In this document: one piece after another, positions 45,168 to 56,653 of the stretch
Position numbering within the stretch: the stretch's first letter is position 1
How the letters are laid out: each line of letters starts with the position of its first letter
Origin: Chitinophagaceae bacterium
Lineage (GTDB): Bacteria > Bacteroidota > Bacteroidia > Chitinophagales > Chitinophagaceae
Assembly: GCA_013140985.1 (NCBI GenBank)
Contig: JABFRU010000029.1
Span: 1 to 64,000, forward strand
Reading direction: 5' to 3'
Length of the DNA stretch: 64,000 nucleotides
Made by a program: the position numbers and the translations under genes
Notes under the pieces: generated by a model
Databases searched by the model: none
The model's input: the letters and a program-made list of their open reading frames with translations, nothing else
What the model was told of the DNA's origin: nothing

Positions 45168-45175
45168 TATATTTG
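45168..45175 (+). promoter_or_regulatory. Candidate -7 box (TATATTTG) of the riboswitch transcript
   Basis: TATATTTG fits TAnnTTTG and directly precedes the aptamer, so transcription would start about at the first aptamer bases. No -33 TTG is seen in the preceding 40 bp. The 235-bp stretch between the porin-like gene and this box holds nothing else I can name. Confidence 0.45.
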
Positions 45176-45179
45176 CCAC

Positions 45180-45386
45180 CGGTTTGGTTTGCTGACGATC
45201 AATGTCAGCATTAAAAGGGAAACCGGTTAAAATCCGGTGCTATCCCCGTAGCTGTAAGGCCTCACCAAACTCCTCCGAAGGAGGAGCATTGAGAGTACAA
45301 TTGTTGAAGAGTTACCACTGTATCGGCTCATCCGAAATGGGAAGGTTTCAACAAAGGCTAAGCCAGAAGACCTGCCAGGCCAGTTA
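45180..45386 (+). ncRNA. Cobalamin (AdoCbl-type) riboswitch aptamer
   Basis: The conserved elements of the B12 aptamer appear in order: GGTTTGGTTTGCTGA and TTAAAAGGGAAACCGGT, then AAAATCCGGTGCTATCCCCGTAGCTGTAAG, CCACTG, ATGGGAAGG and the B12 box AAGCCAGAAGACCTGCC (45359-45375). It lies about 100 bp before a BtuB-type receptor, as expected for B12-repressed uptake. Between the GCTGTAAG and CCACTG elements, in a peripheral stem, is a copy of repeat A (45259-45293). A following hairpin (about 45389-45422) could be part of the expression platform. Confidence 0.93.
45259..45293. repeat. Repeat A copy 5, inside the cobalamin riboswitch
   Basis: GCCTCACCAAACTCCTCC then GAAGGAGGAG: the same order as copy 1. 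One C/G pair of the core is changed to T/A on both arms, so the hairpin is kept by a compensatory change. Confidence 0.75.
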
Positions 45387-45488
45387 AACATTTATTTTGC
45401 TTTCGGGTGAAAAGCTGAAATGTAAAAGTCGGACGACATTTATATTTCTATCTATTTCCTGGAAGCAGTCACACAAAAACTCATTGTT

Positions 45489-50567: not shown

Positions 50568-51710
50568 TTACAATTGTTTTGCAGCGGCCTTCAGGAAAGG
50601 CCATGTGGGCAACGAAGAAATAATTTTCAGATCATCTCCTAAAGAACTTTCATTATCCAAAAACCTCAGCAATGGCCGGGGTTTATTTTTTTTGAACATA
50701 TCAGAGAACACTTTTTCTCCAGAAAGTTTTTTATGCTGAAGGATATTCAGCAGCACACTGTCGTAAAAATGGAATTTCCTTTTTGTTTGTTTAACCACCG
50801 GGCTCTTCCCTGAAATTAATTGCCGGACAATAGCCGCAGAATGTTTCTGAATAAAACGAAATGTATAACCGCTGGAAGCTTTTGTTTGTCCGCCAGCTGT
50901 TCCGATATTGATAATGTTTCCGTTATTTACCGGGAACCGGTGGTTCGTCATTGGAATGATACCAAACTCTTCTTCCTTTATTTTGTATGATCCGATCTGC
51001 AAAACAGTTTTGATATAGTCTTTCAGCCTTTCATCATACTGTTGCTGCTCTAATAATTTCTCAGAAAACAAAGTGTATTCAACCAATGCTTCCTTTTTTG
51101 AGAAAGGCATTACATAAACAAAAGTTGCTCCTTCCTCTTGCCCCACCCGAAAATCCATCAGGGTAGCCTCCCCCGGATTGAATGATGGCGTTTCAGCTTC
51201 AATCATCCATCCCTCAAAATGTTGCAACAAAAAATACTCATTCCTTTTCAACCGGGGTTTTTCAAAAAGAATGCTGTTGAAAATATACCTGGCCCCGATT
51301 TTTTCATCATCAATAATGATCGCTGGCCTTCCCTCTTCATTTTTTATTTCTTTTATCTCGCCGGGCTTTATTGTGATGTTGGATTGTTTTCCAATCAGGT
51401 CAAAACAGTAATTATAAAAATCTATTCCTCGTATTAACTTGTAATGGTAGGGTGATAGCTCAAGAAGGCGGGAAAAGTTCTGTCCATGAAACCAAACCTT
51501 TTCCCATTGTTTATATATGATAGGCTCAAATATTCCCGGCTCCTGCTCCCAGAAGCACCAGGTGCGGTCATTCTTCTTTTTATTATCCTTATCAACGATC
51601 AATATCTTTTTATCACAGAATTTTCCCGAATGGATCATGTGGACGGCAAGACTCAGTCCTGCACAACCAGCACCGGCAATAATGTAGTCGTATGTAGTTG
51701 GAGAGTTCAG
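50568..51710 (-). CDS. crtY: Lycopene cyclase (CrtY type), probable CTG start
   Basis: A FAD-dependent lycopene beta-cyclase. From the first ATG (51638) it would be 356 residues and would lack the FAD-binding motif. The open frame extends upstream to 51713 and encodes TTYDYIIAGAGCAGLSLA, the expected GxGxxG N-terminus, with no ATG, GTG or TTG. The most likely start is the CTG at 51710 (380 residues); ATT codons at 51680 and 51683 would truncate the motif. Later the protein shows the MDFR and WGFxPMxNHRFPV-type features (GIIPMTNHRFPVNNGNIINIGTAGG). It converts lycopene to beta-carotene. Last gene of the crt operon. Confidence 0.85.
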   Translation of the reverse strand: MNSPTTYDYIIAGAGCAGLSLAVHMIHSGKFCDKKILIVDKDNKKKNDRTWCFWEQEPGIFEPIIYKQWEKVWFHGQNFSRLLELSPYHYKLIRGIDFYNYCFDLIGKQSNITIKPGEIKEIKNEEGRPAIIIDDEKIGARYIFNSILFEKPRLKRNEYFLLQHFEGWMIEAETPSFNPGEATLMDFRVGQEEGATFVYVMPFSKKEALVEYTLFSEKLLEQQQYDERLKDYIKTVLQIGSYKIKEEEFGIIPMTNHRFPVNNGNIINIGTAGGQTKASSGYTFRFIQKHSAAIVRQLISGKSPVVKQTKRKFHFYDSVLLNILQHKKLSGEKVFSDMFKKNKPRPLLRFLDNESSLGDDLKIISSLPTWPFLKAAAKQL

Positions 51711-51738
51711 AAACTAAAGATAGTAAGTTGAAAGGCAG

Positions 51739-52248
51739 TTACTCTGCTTCGGGAGCATATTCCACTTTCTTTTTGCCAGCCATCAGTTTTTTATCCTGTC
51801 GGATCTTGTCCCAATATTTTTTGGCAACAAATAACATCCCGAAACTTTCTCCTTCATGACGGTCAAGATGTTTATGATGCATCTTATGCGCCCAGCGAAT
51901 GGCCCTGACATACTTGTTGTTGCTTCTCGTAAACCATTTGAACCGCTGGTGAATGATCACATCATGCACTAAAAAATAAGCAACGCCGTATGCCATAATA
52001 CCAAAACCAATAGCCTGCATCCACCAGATATGATCGAAGCTTCCGAAATAGATCAATAAAATACTAGGCACTGCAAAAATGATAAAGAAGGTATCATTCT
52101 TTTCAAAAAAACCGGGTTCCACCTGGTGGTGATCCTTGTGCAGGTACCATAAAAACCCATGCATTACAAATCTGTGAGTACACCATGTCACCCCTTCCAT
52201 CAGGATAAATGTTGCGATCAATACCAATATATAATACAGCACTCCCAC
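51739..52248 (-). CDS. crtZ: Beta-carotene hydroxylase, CrtZ type
   Basis: A 169-residue integral membrane di-iron hydroxylase with four hydrophobic segments and His clusters HRFVMHG, HKDHHQ, HDVIIH and HKMHHKHLDRH, the standard set for CrtZ. It hydroxylates beta-ionone rings to give beta-cryptoxanthin and zeaxanthin. The gene precedes crtY by 28 bp. A fatty-acid hydroxylase is the alternative, but the operon context favours carotenoids. Confidence 0.92.
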   Translation of the reverse strand: MGVLYYILVLIATFILMEGVTWCTHRFVMHGFLWYLHKDHHQVEPGFFEKNDTFFIIFAVPSILLIYFGSFDHIWWMQAIGFGIMAYGVAYFLVHDVIIHQRFKWFTRSNNKYVRAIRWAHKMHHKHLDRHEGESFGMLFVAKKYWDKIRQDKKLMAGKKKVEYAPEAE

Positions 52249-52265
52249 TTTGCAAAAATACTAAT

Positions 52266-52805
52266 TCATCCTGCTTTGTAATTATAATGTTGTTTCCACC
52301 AATCCATTGCTTTAGGAAAAGCCAAATGAAACCAAACAGAATATTTTTTGGGATGATCCTCCAATGACCTGTTTATTTCCTCCACATCTTTGTAACAACA
52401 ATCCATTACTTCATTGTTATTCAACCTAACCGGTCCGTCATATTCACCCACCAACACATGATCAAATTCATATTCTGTAAGTCCGTTATCAAATTCGGCT
52501 TTGTATATAAAATCAAATATCTTTTTTACTGATGTCTCAAATCCCATTTCTTCTTTTAAACGTTTTTGTGCCGCAGTAACCATTTCTTCTCCCGGTGCAG
52601 GATGGCTGCAACAGGTATTGCTCCATAATCCTGCACTGTGATATTTATCCAATGCCCTTTGTTGTAAAAGCATTTCCCCTTTTGAATTAAAAATAAAAAT
52701 GCTGAAAGCCCGGTGCAGCATTCCTTTTTGATGAGTCTCCAGCTTTCCGGCTACCCCAACTGAATTATCGTTTTCATCCACCAATATCACCTGGCTGTTA
52801 TTCAT
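52266..52805 (-). CDS. idi: Isopentenyl-diphosphate delta-isomerase (type I)
   Basis: A 179-residue Nudix-fold isomerase interconverting IPP and DMAPP. The N-terminal HRAFSIFIF, the catalytic-Cys segment SNTCCSHP, and the later Glu-rich YEFDHVLVGEYDG fit type I IDI. Length is normal. Its presence in the crt operon boosts precursor supply. Overlaps/near-abuts crtB (two-base gap). Confidence 0.93.
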   Translation of the reverse strand: MNNSQVILVDENDNSVGVAGKLETHQKGMLHRAFSIFIFNSKGEMLLQQRALDKYHSAGLWSNTCCSHPAPGEEMVTAAQKRLKEEMGFETSVKKIFDFIYKAEFDNGLTEYEFDHVLVGEYDGPVRLNNNEVMDCCYKDVEEINRSLEDHPKKYSVWFHLAFPKAMDWWKQHYNYKAG

Positions 52806-52807
52806 AC

Positions 52808-53644
52808 TTAAATTAATCGAAGCTGATTTTTTACACCCGCCCTGAAGATAATGAGGGCTTTGTAATAATTAGGTATCCTGACCCTTTTCTCCAGCACTTT
52901 TGCCGGCTTCATCTTTTTGATCTTATTAAAAAGAGACAGGTAGTATTTGTAAGCTACATAAACGCCAAACTTTGCTTTGAGTGGTAATTTCAGAATTCCT
53001 TTATACGCTTCATTGAAATCATTGCAAATATCTTTTTCTATCATTCTCTTGTCTTCCCCGGAGAAATTGCTGAAATCGCAGCCGGGAAAATAAATTCTCG
53101 ACAGCCCGTTGTAATCTGCTTTAATATCTCTCAAAAAATTTACCTTTTGAAAGGCTGCCCCGAGTGAACGGGCCGCCATTTTCAACTCCTCGAAAATATT
53201 TTTTTTGCCTTCACAAAAAACGGCCAGGCACATAAGCCCTACAGACTCAGCCGAACCGTAGATGTACTCTTTGTACTCCTCACGGTTATATTGCCTTTTT
53301 TCGATATCCATTTCCATGCTTTTGAAAAAAGAAGCGATCAGGCCCCTGTCAATATCATACTCATTTACTGTTCGTTGAAAACTATTTAAAATGGGATTCA
53401 AACTAATACTTCTTTCAATAGCGTCAAACGTTTCCTTTTTAAATTGTTCCAGCAAATACTTTTTGTCATGTTCATGAAAAGTATCTACGATCTCATCAGC
53501 AAAACGAACAAAGCCATAAATATTAAAAATTGGCGTCCGCAGATCTTTATGCAGCATCCTGATAGCGGAAGAGAAAGAAGTGCTGTAATTCTCTGTAACC
53601 ATCCTGCTGCAATTTTCACTCGTAGTATGAAATAAATGAACCAT
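52808..53644 (-). CDS. crtB: Phytoene synthase
   Basis: A 278-residue enzyme joining two geranylgeranyl diphosphates to phytoene, starting at the ATG at 53644. The first aspartate-rich motif DEIVD (about 55-59) and the second (RDIKAD, about 180-185) are present, with GSAESVGLMCL between. No GGPP synthase (crtE) gene lies in the window, so it must be elsewhere. Follows crtI by 19 bp. Confidence 0.94.
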   Translation of the reverse strand: MVHLFHTTSENCSRMVTENYSTSFSSAIRMLHKDLRTPIFNIYGFVRFADEIVDTFHEHDKKYLLEQFKKETFDAIERSISLNPILNSFQRTVNEYDIDRGLIASFFKSMEMDIEKRQYNREEYKEYIYGSAESVGLMCLAVFCEGKKNIFEELKMAARSLGAAFQKVNFLRDIKADYNGLSRIYFPGCDFSNFSGEDKRMIEKDICNDFNEAYKGILKLPLKAKFGVYVAYKYYLSLFNKIKKMKPAKVLEKRVRIPNYYKALIIFRAGVKNQLRLI

Positions 53645-53663
53645 CAATTGTAAATTAAGAAAA

Positions 53664-55139
53664 TTATGATGATAATTTTATCACTTGTTTTGCCACTACT
53701 TCTCCACTAATAAGACTTGGCGGAACTCCGGGGCCCGGCACCGTCATTTGTCCAGTATAAAATAAATTTTTCACTTTTTTACTTTGACAGGAAGGCCTGA
53801 AGATCGCCGTTTGCTTCAGTGTATTCGCCAATCCATAGGCATTTCCTCTAAACGAATTATAATCATGTACGAAATCACTTACCGAATAGGTTTTTTTGTA
53901 CATGATCGAATCTAAAATTGGTTCTCCTAAATGATTCTCTATTCTTTTTGCGATCACCTGGAAATATTTTTCTCTTATCTCTTCGCTGTCACCTTCCAGG
54001 CCTGCTGCGACAGGCACCAGCAAAACAAGATTTTCACATCCGGGCGGCGCCGCACTTTCATCATTCAAAGATGAAACACTCATATAGAACAAAGGTTCAG
54101 ATGGCCATTGAGGATTTTTATAAATTTCCTCCCCATGTTTCTCAAATGGGACATCGAAGAAAAGAGAATGATGAACAGGTTGTTTAAGTTTTTTATTCAG
54201 CCCTACATAATACATTAAACAGGAGGGAGCCATTACTCTCTTATTCCAATATTTTTTTGAATAACTCTGGCATTCTTCAGGTAATAATCTTGTTTCAGTG
54301 AAATGATAGTCAGCTCCGCTGATGACAGCATGTGTATCATAAATATCTTTATCAGTACTGATAGTTTTAGCAGTTGTTCCTTTGACCAGTATGCCTGTTG
54401 TCTTTTCTCCAAAATGGAATTTAACGCCAAGTTCTGTAGCAAGCTGATACATACCTTGCACCACCGAATACATACCACCCTCCGGATACCAGGTACCTCC
54501 TTTAATATCGGCATAATTCATAAGGCTGTACAAAGCAGGTGTATCCTGAGGTAACGCACCAAGGAACAAGACAGGAAATTCCATCAATTGTCTTAGCTTA
54601 GGATGAGTAAAATGTCTGGCAATATGTTTTTTAATGGAAGTAAAGACCTGCAATTTAAAAACACCGCTGATGGTTTGCCAGTCTAGAAACTCAAATAGAG
54701 AACGGCCCGGTTTGTAAACCAGTTTTTGCATTCCCACTTTATATTTGTAAGACGCCTCGAGTAAATATTTCTCCAACTTTGCGGAACTGCCGGGCTCTAA
54801 TGCATCAAATACTTTTTTTAATTCATCAAAATTGGCAGGGATATCTGTAAAATCATCATTCCAATATATCCTGTAAGAGGGATCGAGACGTTTCAATGAA
54901 TAATAATCGCTGGCCTTTTTTCCGAACTGTGCAAAATATCTTTCAAATACATCTGGCATCCAGTAAAAACTTGGCCCCATATCAAATGTAAATCCATCGG
55001 CCTTTAATTGACGGGCCCTTCCACCAGGTGTATCGTTTTTTTCGATGACCGTCACATCCCACCCTGCTTGTGCCATAAAAGATGCAGCAGACAAACCAGC
55101 AAACCCACTGCCGATGACGATCACAGTTTTTTTGGCCAC
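53664..55139 (-). CDS. crtI: Phytoene desaturase
   Basis: A 491-residue FAD-dependent desaturase. The dinucleotide-binding motif VIGSGFAGLSAA is at about 6-17, and the C-terminal GPGVPPSLISGEVVAKQ matches the CrtI signature. It converts phytoene stepwise to lycopene. It follows the ECF sigma gene by 10 bp. Complete. Confidence 0.95.
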   Translation of the reverse strand: MAKKTVIVIGSGFAGLSAASFMAQAGWDVTVIEKNDTPGGRARQLKADGFTFDMGPSFYWMPDVFERYFAQFGKKASDYYSLKRLDPSYRIYWNDDFTDIPANFDELKKVFDALEPGSSAKLEKYLLEASYKYKVGMQKLVYKPGRSLFEFLDWQTISGVFKLQVFTSIKKHIARHFTHPKLRQLMEFPVLFLGALPQDTPALYSLMNYADIKGGTWYPEGGMYSVVQGMYQLATELGVKFHFGEKTTGILVKGTTAKTISTDKDIYDTHAVISGADYHFTETRLLPEECQSYSKKYWNKRVMAPSCLMYYVGLNKKLKQPVHHSLFFDVPFEKHGEEIYKNPQWPSEPLFYMSVSSLNDESAAPPGCENLVLLVPVAAGLEGDSEEIREKYFQVIAKRIENHLGEPILDSIMYKKTYSVSDFVHDYNSFRGNAYGLANTLKQTAIFRPSCQSKKVKNLFYTGQMTVPGPGVPPSLISGEVVAKQVIKLSS

Positions 55140-55149
55140 AGAAAAATTT

Positions 55150-55650
55150 TTAGAAACGGCTGATCTGTTCTTTCAATAATTTCCTTGCAAAGTGGATCCT
55201 GCTTTTGACAGTTCCCAGTGGTTCGTGAAGCATCTCAGCTATCTCGTTATACTTATACCCATCAAAGTACAACAAAAATGGAGTTTTGAATATCTCAGGC
55301 AATTGCCGGATCGCTTTATTGATCTCTTTTAATTCCAGCGCACTTTCAGCAGCATTTTGTACAGTAGCCTGTTTCAGATTTACGAGAAAATCATTTGGCG
55401 TACTATCAAGAATGGTTTTTTGTTTGACTTTTCTGCGGTAATCATTGATAAAAATGTTCCGCATGATGGTGAATAACCAGGCTTTCAGATTGGTACCTGT
55501 ATGATATTTTTCCTGGTTGGCTAATGCCTTATATAGAGTTTCCTGGTAAAGATCATTAGCAACTTCCGTATCCCTTGTCAGATTAATGGCAAAGGGTTTC
55601 AGAAAATCTGCATTCTTGATAAGCATACTATTGAACTCGAGAGTGGACAT
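55150..55650 (-). CDS. ECF sigma factor leading the carotenoid operon
   Basis: A 166-residue sigma-70-family ECF factor: region 2 with TRDTEVANDLYQETLYKAL and NLKAWLFTIMRNIFINDYRRK, region 4 with YKYNEIAEMLHEPLGTVKSRI. It is the first gene of the crt operon. No anti-sigma gene is beside it, which is unusual and suggests control at the level of its transcription, plausibly by the neighbouring MerR/B12 regulator. A minus-strand -7 box and an inverted repeat lie just upstream. Confidence 0.93.
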   Translation of the reverse strand: MSTLEFNSMLIKNADFLKPFAINLTRDTEVANDLYQETLYKALANQEKYHTGTNLKAWLFTIMRNIFINDYRRKVKQKTILDSTPNDFLVNLKQATVQNAAESALELKEINKAIRQLPEIFKTPFLLYFDGYKYNEIAEMLHEPLGTVKSRIHFARKLLKEQISRF

Positions 55651-55656
55651 TTATTC

Positions 55657-55689
55657 TTGTTTAACAATTATTGGTCCAAAGTTAAACAA
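55657..55689. promoter_or_regulatory. Perfect 9-bp inverted repeat, putative operator
   Basis: TTGTTTAAC (55657-55665), a 15-base spacer, and GTTAAACAA (55681-55689) form a perfect 9+9 inverted repeat. It overlaps the predicted -7 box of the crt operon and starts seven bases before the sigma gene's ATG. A similar half-site CTTAAACAA is at 55762-55770 and a diverged one (GACAAACAA) lies before the regulator gene. A site for the MerR/B12 protein is inferred. Confidence 0.5.
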
Positions 55690-55709
55690 AAAAGCCGGCG
55701 ATAGACCAA
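55677..55709 (-). promoter_or_regulatory. Candidate crt operon promoter
   Basis: On the minus strand TTG (55707-55709), 22-bp spacer, TAACTTTG (55677-55684) match the Bacteroidota consensus. Start codon is 27 bp downstream. It overlaps both the terminator of the regulator gene and the inverted repeat. Confidence 0.55.
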
Positions 55710-55718
55710 TCCGGGCTT
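55688..55718 (-). terminator. Intrinsic terminator of the MerR/B12 gene
   Basis: On the minus strand AAGC(C)CGG pairs with CCGGCTT (one bulge), followed by TTTTTTG. It separates the regulator from the crt operon. Confidence 0.7.
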
Positions 55719-55774
55719 ACATTTTCTTTGTTAAGCTAAAACAACCTTTTTGCATTTATTTCTTAAACAAAAAA

Positions 55775-56653
55775 TCAGGCAAGGACTGCCAAATATTCCA
55801 TCACTTCTGCCAGGGAACGTTTCAATTGAACACAAGATGGCAGCTTTTTTTTGTAATGCTGTACAGGGTAACCTGAGATGATTGTTTCAGTAGCCAGTTG
55901 CTTTTCGATATTCTGCATGAATTTATCAAGATGAAAGTTAGGAGCGGTTCCTGTAAGATGAATGAAAACAAGATCGGGCTTTTTTATTTTAAGAATGCAT
56001 TCTACATCTTTCAGCGGAACATTTGCTCCAAGGTAAATGGTACAGATCCCCTTACTTTTTAAAATATAGTGTACGAATAAAAGGCCCATTTCATGATATT
56101 CTCCTTCGGGCAGAAAAAGCAGAACTGTTTTATTGATCCTTGTCCCGCTGCTGGCGGTTTCGATCGCTGCGATCAATTTTTGCCGGATGATATTGGCTAC
56201 CAGGTGTTCTTGTGCAGGAATGATATGACCCGTTTGCCACAGGATACCGATCTTCTCAAGGAAAGGGAATATGATCTGAGTAACTGTTCTCTCTATTCCT
56301 TTGGAAGCAACATACCTGCCCATGATCTTTTCAAATTCCTCCATATTGAGCTCTGCCATTTCCTGCACAAGCTCATTTACGACCCTTTCCTGCTGCGCTT
56401 TTATATCGCCTAAAGACAATATCTTTTCCCTGATCTCTTCGGGTTTCATTTTGTCAATGTGAGAGATCTTGAACCCATATTTATTCAGCAGGGCAATATT
56501 GAGAAGGGTCCTTAACTCATCATTACAATAGCAGCGGATATTGGTACAGGTGCGTTTGGGCTTCAAAAAATTATAGCGTTGCTCCCACATGCGGATCGTA
56601 TGGGCCTTTATCCCGGAAAGATTTTCAAGATCCTTTATGGTAAATACATTCAT
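55775..56653 (-). CDS. MerR-family regulator with B12-binding domain (CarH/LitR-like)
   Basis: A 292-residue protein. The N-terminal MerR helix-turn-helix (about 1-75, with IKAHTIRMWEQRYNFL) is followed by a helical bundle and a cobalamin-binding Rossmann domain. The signature W-x9-EH of CarH/LitR photoreceptors is present (W139, E149, H150), as is the E-x-H-x-x-G cobalt-ligand motif (E185, H187, G190). The residue after W139 is Gln where the Thermus protein has the His that caps cobalt after photolysis. The S-x-T and GG parts of the B12 fold are weaker (HLT 232-234, SG 260-261). Likely a B12-dependent repressor of the divergent-in-function, downstream crt operon. Confidence 0.88.
   Translation of the reverse strand: MNVFTIKDLENLSGIKAHTIRMWEQRYNFLKPKRTCTNIRCYCNDELRTLLNIALLNKYGFKISHIDKMKPEEIREKILSLGDIKAQQERVVNELVQEMAELNMEEFEKIMGRYVASKGIERTVTQIIFPFLEKIGILWQTGHIIPAQEHLVANIIRQKLIAAIETASSGTRINKTVLLFLPEGEYHEMGLLFVHYILKSKGICTIYLGANVPLKDVECILKIKKPDLVFIHLTGTAPNFHLDKFMQNIEKQLATETIISGYPVQHYKKKLPSCVQLKRSLAEVMEYLAVLA

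Follow-up and report, generated by a model that had tools for sequence, protein, structure and literature searches.

A CarH/LitR-type regulator and a conserved predicted operator at an ECF sigma factor–carotenoid gene cluster of a Chitinophagaceae bacterium

The carotenoid locus and its MerR-type regulator

We analysed a stretch of 64,000 nucleotides (the window) from contig JABFRU010000029.1 of a Chitinophagaceae bacterium (Bacteroidota; assembly GCA_013140985.1), in which genes for a MerR-type regulator and an extracytoplasmic function (ECF) sigma factor precede a set of carotenoid (crt) genes. The genome comprises 3.86 Mb in 83 contigs. Seven genes form a run on the minus strand, in the order merR, ECF sigma, crtI, crtB, idi, crtZ and crtY:

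55775..56653, minus strand: merR, CarH/LitR-type regulator of 292 amino acids with a helix-turn-helix (HTH), a four-helix bundle and a Rossmann B12 domain
55150..55650, minus strand: ECF sigma factor of 166 amino acids, predicted operon leader (Pfam Sigma70_r2 and r4_2)
53664..55139, minus strand: crtI, phytoene desaturase, GTG start (NCBIfam NF058655, 733.9 bits; cut-off 640)
52808..53647, minus strand: crtB, phytoene synthase, TTG start (Pfam SQS_PSY, 148 bits)
52266..52805, minus strand: idi, type 1 isopentenyl-diphosphate isomerase (NCBIfam NF002995 and TIGR02150 above cut-off; Pfam NUDIX)
51739..52248, minus strand: crtZ-like beta-carotene hydroxylase, by its place in the operon and its presence again in relatives' clusters
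50568..~51710, minus strand: crtY, lycopene cyclase, start uncertain (Pfam Lycopene_cycl, 172 bits)

This gene order, and residues W139, Q140, E149, H150, E185, H187 and G190 of the MerR protein, were confirmed in translation as the original prediction had given them. The sigma factor contains regions 2 and 4 only (Pfam; NCBIfam TIGR02937 above cut-off), and its stop codon lies 10 bp before the crtI start. The absence of a visible anti-sigma partner was also borne out, as no anti-sigma gene adjoins the sigma gene, whose neighbours are merR before it and crtI after it. The crtZ product gave no Pfam or NCBIfam match at E 0.001, and we name it from its operon position and from histidine motifs that we take to be those of the hydroxylase. 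The family that crtI matches above cut-off is named bifunctional phytoene desaturase/3,4-desaturase (NCBIfam), which hints at a 3,4-desaturated carotenoid product. Translated from its first ATG (51638), crtY is without its flavin adenine dinucleotide (FAD)-binding N-terminus; the frame (50568-51716, minus strand) has no ATG, GTG or TTG ahead of the FAD motif and opens after a stop codon with TTT-CTG-AAC, which could mean a CTG start or an error in assembly or frame.

The window's protein and locus were compared with 100 others from Bacteroidota, drawn from 244 family genomes (156 with a match) and 392 phylum genomes (79 with a match). The resulting 101 were hand-chosen, non-random and mutually related, and counts among them are not independent events. 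In 56 of the 101 loci, the window included, merR is followed by a same-strand sigma gene (at least 38% identity); because this order recurs so often, the arrangement is not a chance one. The gene crtY is present in 34. The sigma gene of L128 was missed by the step that extracted the merR-sigma gaps and is not among the 56. L111, L112, L113 and L122, in which a distant ECF-like gene (27–30% identity) lies on the opposite strand at the upstream side of merR, were counted as without an in-line sigma gene. In another Bacteroidota genome (L102, 5616-7870), this type of MerR gene follows a same-strand DNA photolyase gene.

The HTH of the MerR protein matched Pfam MerR_1 with 47.5 bits; its recognition helix reads RMWEQRY (RxWExRY), and R21, W23, E24 and R26 are invariant across 24 aligned sequences. 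The Wx9EH motif of the four-helix bundle (W139, E149, H150) is conserved in 100, 99 and 98 of the 101 proteins, respectively. The lower-ligand motif D/ExHx2G/P is present as E185, H187 and G190, with the ligand His kept in 97/101, and Trp, the Glu-His pair and the lower-ligand His occur all together in 94/101. Pfam B12-binding_2 was matched as well. The top PDB matches over most of the length were entries of Thermus CarH (TtCarH)/LitR (E ~3e-23). An AlphaFold2 model built from 24 aligned sequences, among them that of the window (mean predicted local distance difference test score 91.3, predicted template modelling score 0.85), was nearest in fold to TtCarH (Foldseek E 8.6e-16; VIA-align Z 17.3, with 190 B12-part residues aligned at 2.7 Å), followed by CtMerR of Chloracidobacterium and by photocobilins. 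Superposition of the full length on TtCarH entries gave root-mean-square deviations of 9.5–12.7 Å, because the DNA-binding domain is turned. Sequence and predicted fold together uphold the assignment to the CarH-type B12 proteins.

The residue after the conserved Trp, at the place of TtCarH His132, is Gln140. The original prediction presented this as a special feature, which our comparison did not confirm: His is missing there in 99 of the 101 Bacteroidota proteins (His 2, Gln 37, Leu 26, Met 11, the rest Val, Ile and others), so Gln140 is real but is the rule among the Bacteroidota sampled and no oddity. In a comparison set of 70 proteins, rich in Thermaceae, His occupied this place in 30/34 of the Deinococcota-rich set, 17/30 from Chloroflexota and 0/4 betaproteobacterial plasmid proteins. 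Two plasmid homologues from Persicobacter (Bacteroidota; L203 and L204, not among the 101) lack both the ligand His and the EH pair; in one of them, the Trp is followed by His. According to the accessible part of one report, SasPcob has Gln at the His place, and CtMerR, with Arg there, changes from a dark tetramer to a light monomer (PMC11796333); a light response without His is therefore possible by another route. Furthermore, the Arg176-Asp201 dimer pair of TtCarH corresponds to Tyr186/Asn211 in the window's protein. Arg/Lys together with Asp/Glu at these sites was found in 0/101 Bacteroidota proteins, one of which has the charges reversed, and was kept in 3/30 from Chloroflexota.

A predicted operator before the sigma gene

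Three features were marked in the gap between merR and the sigma gene:

55658..55688, no strand assigned: predicted operator, a TGTTTAA-N17-TTAAACA inverted repeat without mismatches, spanning 38 to 8 bp ahead of the start codon of sigma
55677..55684, minus strand: candidate -7 box TAACTTTG, which shares bases with the operator's left arm
55714..55743, no strand assigned: degenerate second operator-like site (10/14), in register with the upper site of relatives, weak alone

The repeat at 55658-55688 is the sole perfect match with a spacer of 16-17 in the 3.86-Mb genome, and the reversed-pattern control gave 0. With a spacer of 17, the same genome holds no match with one mismatch and 36 with two. 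A wider direct regulon built on weak operators was rejected, as 37 places were found (spacer 17, at most two mismatches) versus 59 for the reversed control. Across the 56 merR-sigma gaps, the sites that matched at least 12/14 positions at a spacer of 16 or 17 numbered 96, compared to about 2.5 in dinucleotide-preserving shuffles. In 54 of the 56 gaps, a proximal copy that matches 12/14 or better begins 33-62 bp ahead of the sigma start, and its arms are nearly invariant; 53 gaps hold a site at 13/14 or better, and 44 hold one at 14/14. In addition, an upper second copy at 12/14 is present in 38/56 gaps, mostly 55-57 bp from the proximal copy. The same site precedes merR at 13/14 in 21 of the 101 loci. 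Elsewhere, over 1.47 Mb, 59 sites reached 12/14 and seven reached 13/14, of which two stand before a divergent sigma gene. From this conserved predicted operator, control of the sigma gene by the MerR protein is probable.

We take TAACTTTG to be a candidate -7 box, on the assumption that the Bacteroidota consensus is TAnnTTTG. A -33 box is not evident in the window, and TTTG was found 18-22 bp upstream in just 21/54 relatives; the promoter assignment is weak because TTTG occurs at the -33 spacing in only these 21. A protein bound at 55658-55688 would be expected to block a promoter placed here.

Previous work, as given in the available text of two reports, described CarH operators as tandem direct repeats of 11 bp that have TnnACA as their core, an operator type seen for TtCarH, CarHBm and CarHCfu (PMC9304148, PMC8156234). 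The arms of the repeat contain this core as TAAACA. At our loci, pairs of TnnACA in inverted orientation 24-25 bp apart numbered 83 versus 0.8 expected, and direct pairs at 11 bp numbered 5 versus 0.9; the predicted sites do not form a tandem direct-repeat operator of the CarH style. If the MerR protein binds here, the layout is new relative to the CarH literature consulted for operators. The tandem layout of the described operators would also fit an inverted repeat that belongs to another regulator, with the MerR protein binding elsewhere or idle. We hold this to be very improbable, as the arms hold the CarH core and the repeat tracks merR, standing before merR and in merR-sigma and merR-crt gaps, with none at 13/14 at the loci of the paralogues. 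These paralogues (L081-L090; 33–42% identity; ExHxxP in 9/10) form a second, distant MerR clade that is frequent in family genomes; no crt gene was found beside them, and the operator was found at 0/10 of their loci at 13/14 and at 2/10 at 12/14. Genes near L081, L083 and L085 encode a signal peptidase, a cytidine deaminase, a response regulator, an S-adenosylhomocysteine hydrolase and a DUF protein.

Regulation of the carotenoid genes and B12 supply

The original prediction had B12 and light control the sigma factor, which would then amplify or broaden the response, a two-tier cascade that we read as a serial route to crt. The first part stands as probable MerR control of the sigma gene; the serial route to crt was not supported in that form. 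Among merR-crt loci without an in-line sigma gene, a site lies before merR or in the merR-crt gap in 17/17 at 12/14 and in 10/17 at 13/14, and the merR-crt gap itself holds one at 13/14 in 8/17. The placement of crt genes was further followed in 20 chosen genomes, 17 of which have crtB, at 20 places; eight places, chosen for merR-sigma elsewhere in the genome, were examined. Five of them are detached crtI-crtB clusters with neither merR nor sigma beside them, and three of these (L226, L227, L230) have a site shortly before crtI, starting 32, 48 and 74 bp before the first matched crtI residue and matching 13, 12 and 12 of 14 positions. As background, six other 12/14 sites lie away from these gene starts in the 11 stretches scanned (169 kb). 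In L228, a sigma-crt cluster carries two sites and merR is elsewhere (L233). Since sites are found at crt loci without sigma, control of crt by merR would need no sigma factor. Moreover, only 10 bp separate sigma from crtI here, so a single operator should control both; among 47 loci in which this distance was measured, it is at most 35 bp in 38. On this reading, direct action of the repressor on crt, parallel to its action on sigma, is probable.

Conversely, merR, operator and sigma gene occur without crt genes beside them in L033, L037, L060, L062 and L065 (at least 13/14) and in L070 (12/14). Two genomes that share a genus code each have two merR types: the second, accompanied by sites of its own, leads crtI-crtB-crtZ (L232, L234), and the first leads sigma-idi (L062, L235). 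No crtB match was found in two merR-sigma-idi genomes (G074, 90% complete; G096, 99% complete); the sigma gene can therefore be kept without this crt gene. On the simplest reading, the sigma factor is a parallel output, co-transcribed with crt in this genome, for genes that lie beyond a repressor with a single perfect site. On a quick tree, the sigma-gene label requires eight changes, which fit both ancestral presence and repeated gain.

A serial arrangement, in which the MerR protein controls only sigma and sigma drives crt, would resemble LitR-LitS-crtE of Streptomyces, for which the accessible text of PMC12705666 gives a precedent. The predicted operator does stand at the sigma gene, the operon leader; the sigma protein is nearer to the window's copy than the MerR protein is in 47/48 loci; two of the five detached crt clusters have no operator; and a sigma-dependent promoter inside or before crt is possible. 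We nevertheless consider it unlikely, given the short sigma-crtI distances, by which crt should be co-transcribed, the sites before merR or crt at the sigma-less loci, and the sites that three of the five detached clusters have of their own. Comparison of the stretches before detached crtI and idi revealed no sigma promoter or regulon. A palindrome-like element, ATGGTAACACCAT...TTTAGCAAyTTTGT, lies after sigma and before idi in L062 (6023-6031), L235 (7847) and L236 (7835). It may be a sigma-dependent promoter or the site of another regulator; it was not accepted as the sigma promoter, as the three loci all share a genus code and the searched sequences contain 17 further occurrences of GGTAACACC by itself.

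Two further features of the window concern B12:

45168..45393, plus strand: cobalamin riboswitch (RF00174, 94 bits), the sole match in the genome
45489..47435, plus strand: BtuB-like TonB-dependent receptor for B12 uptake (TIGR01779 E 3e-63, 214 bits, below the 599.7 cut-off; Pfam Plug and barrel)

About 8 kb separate the riboswitch and the BtuB-like receptor from the B12-type regulator. The genome encodes one PduO-type adenosyltransferase and has two matches to B12-binding_2: the MerR protein and a frame of 905 residues, perhaps MetH, that lies on a different contig. No match to CbiC, the one marker of B12 synthesis searched, was found in the genome. The host probably takes up B12 and can make adenosylcobalamin (AdoCbl), judging from these genes; with B12 salvaged, a shortage of B12 should therefore also derepress the operon.

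These data bear on a further explanation, in which a cobalamin-binding MerR protein senses B12 supply or redox state instead of light, repressing with AdoCbl bound and allowing carotenoid production when unbound. The probable external origin of B12 (by the one marker), the proximity of the riboswitch and receptor, and the missing upper-ligand His in 99/101 relatives would agree with such a sensor. Free AdoCbl is itself light-sensitive. The residues that contact the adenosyl group in TtCarH, Trp131 and Glu141 according to the available portion of PMC10442372, are kept in 100/101 and 99/101 proteins, and CtMerR, as far as the accessible text of PMC11796333 goes, responds to light without the His. 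We judge a sensor of B12 or redox alone to be quite unlikely.

Instead, we think it likely that the MerR protein is a B12-based, light-released repressor of the sigma-crt operon, and that the circuit is branched, with crt controlled directly and other genes reached by way of sigma, more than serial. It would be a CarH/LitR-type repressor active in the dark, loaded with AdoCbl made from scavenged B12. An oligomer on the 55658-55688 repeat would cover the promoter of sigma-crtI-crtB-idi-crtZ-crtY. Green or blue light would cleave the Co-C bond and release the protein from DNA, sigma and the carotenoid enzymes would then be produced together, and sigma would relay the signal to genes elsewhere, out of reach of a repressor that has a single perfect site.

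Several observations weigh against this proposal. The match to Pfam B12-binding (27.3 bits) is under the 32.1 cut-off, and the CarH equivalog NF052513 gave 112.2 bits versus a cut-off of 400 (NCBIfam). The cobalamin-tail half of the B12 motif, given as SxT/V...GG in the available part of PMC9304148, reads HxT...SG here (His232; Ser260-Gly261); the two substituted positions are His in 62/101 and Ser in 66/101 Bacteroidota proteins versus Ser in 54/64 and Gly in 61/64 other CarH-type proteins (with L139, L154, L167, L168, L203 and L204, which are broken, partial, off-family or from Bacteroidota, left out). No His is available for a bis-His light state, and TtCarH H132A stays mostly tetrameric in light, as stated in the accessible text of PMC10442372, which places the absorption band of a bis-His light state at 359 nm and that of hydroxylated Co(III) near 352 nm. 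On the DNA, the upper operator in the window has decayed to 10/14; an operator before the window's merR was rejected, as the best candidate reached 8/14 and such sites occur only in relatives; the detached crt clusters L229 and L231 have no operator site; and the MerR protein is assigned to the repeat solely by association.

The changes in the tail motif and the dimer pair may alter corrinoid choice and oligomer geometry. A bolder form of the proposal is possible, and we put it forward tentatively: the Bacteroidota proteins could be a separate branch of B12 photoreceptors, without bis-His chemistry, with a different grip on the cobalamin tail, inverted half-sites and a different oligomer on DNA, in which the repressor would here have one target and reach an unlinked light regulon only via the co-transcribed sigma factor. 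CarH serves both as a model photoreceptor and in optogenetics. The His that accounts for its light signalling is absent from almost every Bacteroidota protein sampled, and the repeat layout that accounts for its DNA binding is apparently unused in the Bacteroidota branch. The operator is short, conserved and unique in its perfect form, and light, B12 and DNA binding could be addressed on one fragment. A separate sigma regulon, if there is one, would reveal which functions other than pigment light controls in non-phototrophic Bacteroidota.

Comparison with known systems

Light-induced crt expression is described for one Bacteroidota species, Chryseobacterium lacus, in which car and lit genes were not detected according to the part of the report available (PMC7064467). 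Our literature search, mostly without full texts, returned no account of MerR/B12 control of an ECF factor in Bacteroidota, of this operator or of this locus. The novelty that the original prediction saw in the cascade was not supported in that form, as a MerR/B12 regulator acting on an ECF factor is known from LitR-LitS of Streptomyces (PMC12705666, accessible text).

TtCarH, a class I LitR/CarH protein, shares the domain order, the fold, the Wx9EH and ExHx2G motifs, the link to crt and the TnnACA core with the system described here. The differences are Gln in place of His132, Tyr186/Asn211 in place of Arg176-Asp201, HxT...SG in place of SxT/V...GG, an inverted in place of a tandem direct operator, and a sigma gene inside the operon. 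CtMerR likewise lacks the upper His in a B12 domain that resembles that of CarH (VIA-align Z 16.7, 213 residues, 3.9 Å); it differs in having another DNA-binding domain, in the words of its authors, and the accessible text mentions no carotenoid operon (PMC11796333).

The arrangement itself, a B12-type MerR gene next to an ECF sigma gene upstream of carotenoid synthesis, is that of LitR-LitS in Streptomyces. There, LitR acts on LitS and LitS drives crtE, as established in the available text of PMC12705666, whereas here sigma and crt apparently form one operon and sigma-less crt loci carry the operator. In Myxococcus (CarQ/CarR/CarS and CarA), an ECF sigma factor also takes part in light-induced carotenogenesis beside a CarH/CarA repressor, but CarQ is held by the anti-sigma factor CarR and responds to singlet oxygen, as the accessible part of PMC9304148 relates, and no such partner adjoins the sigma gene here. 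The parts in this arrangement are known ones, with a DNA site and a light chemistry that seem to differ from those of the textbook switch.

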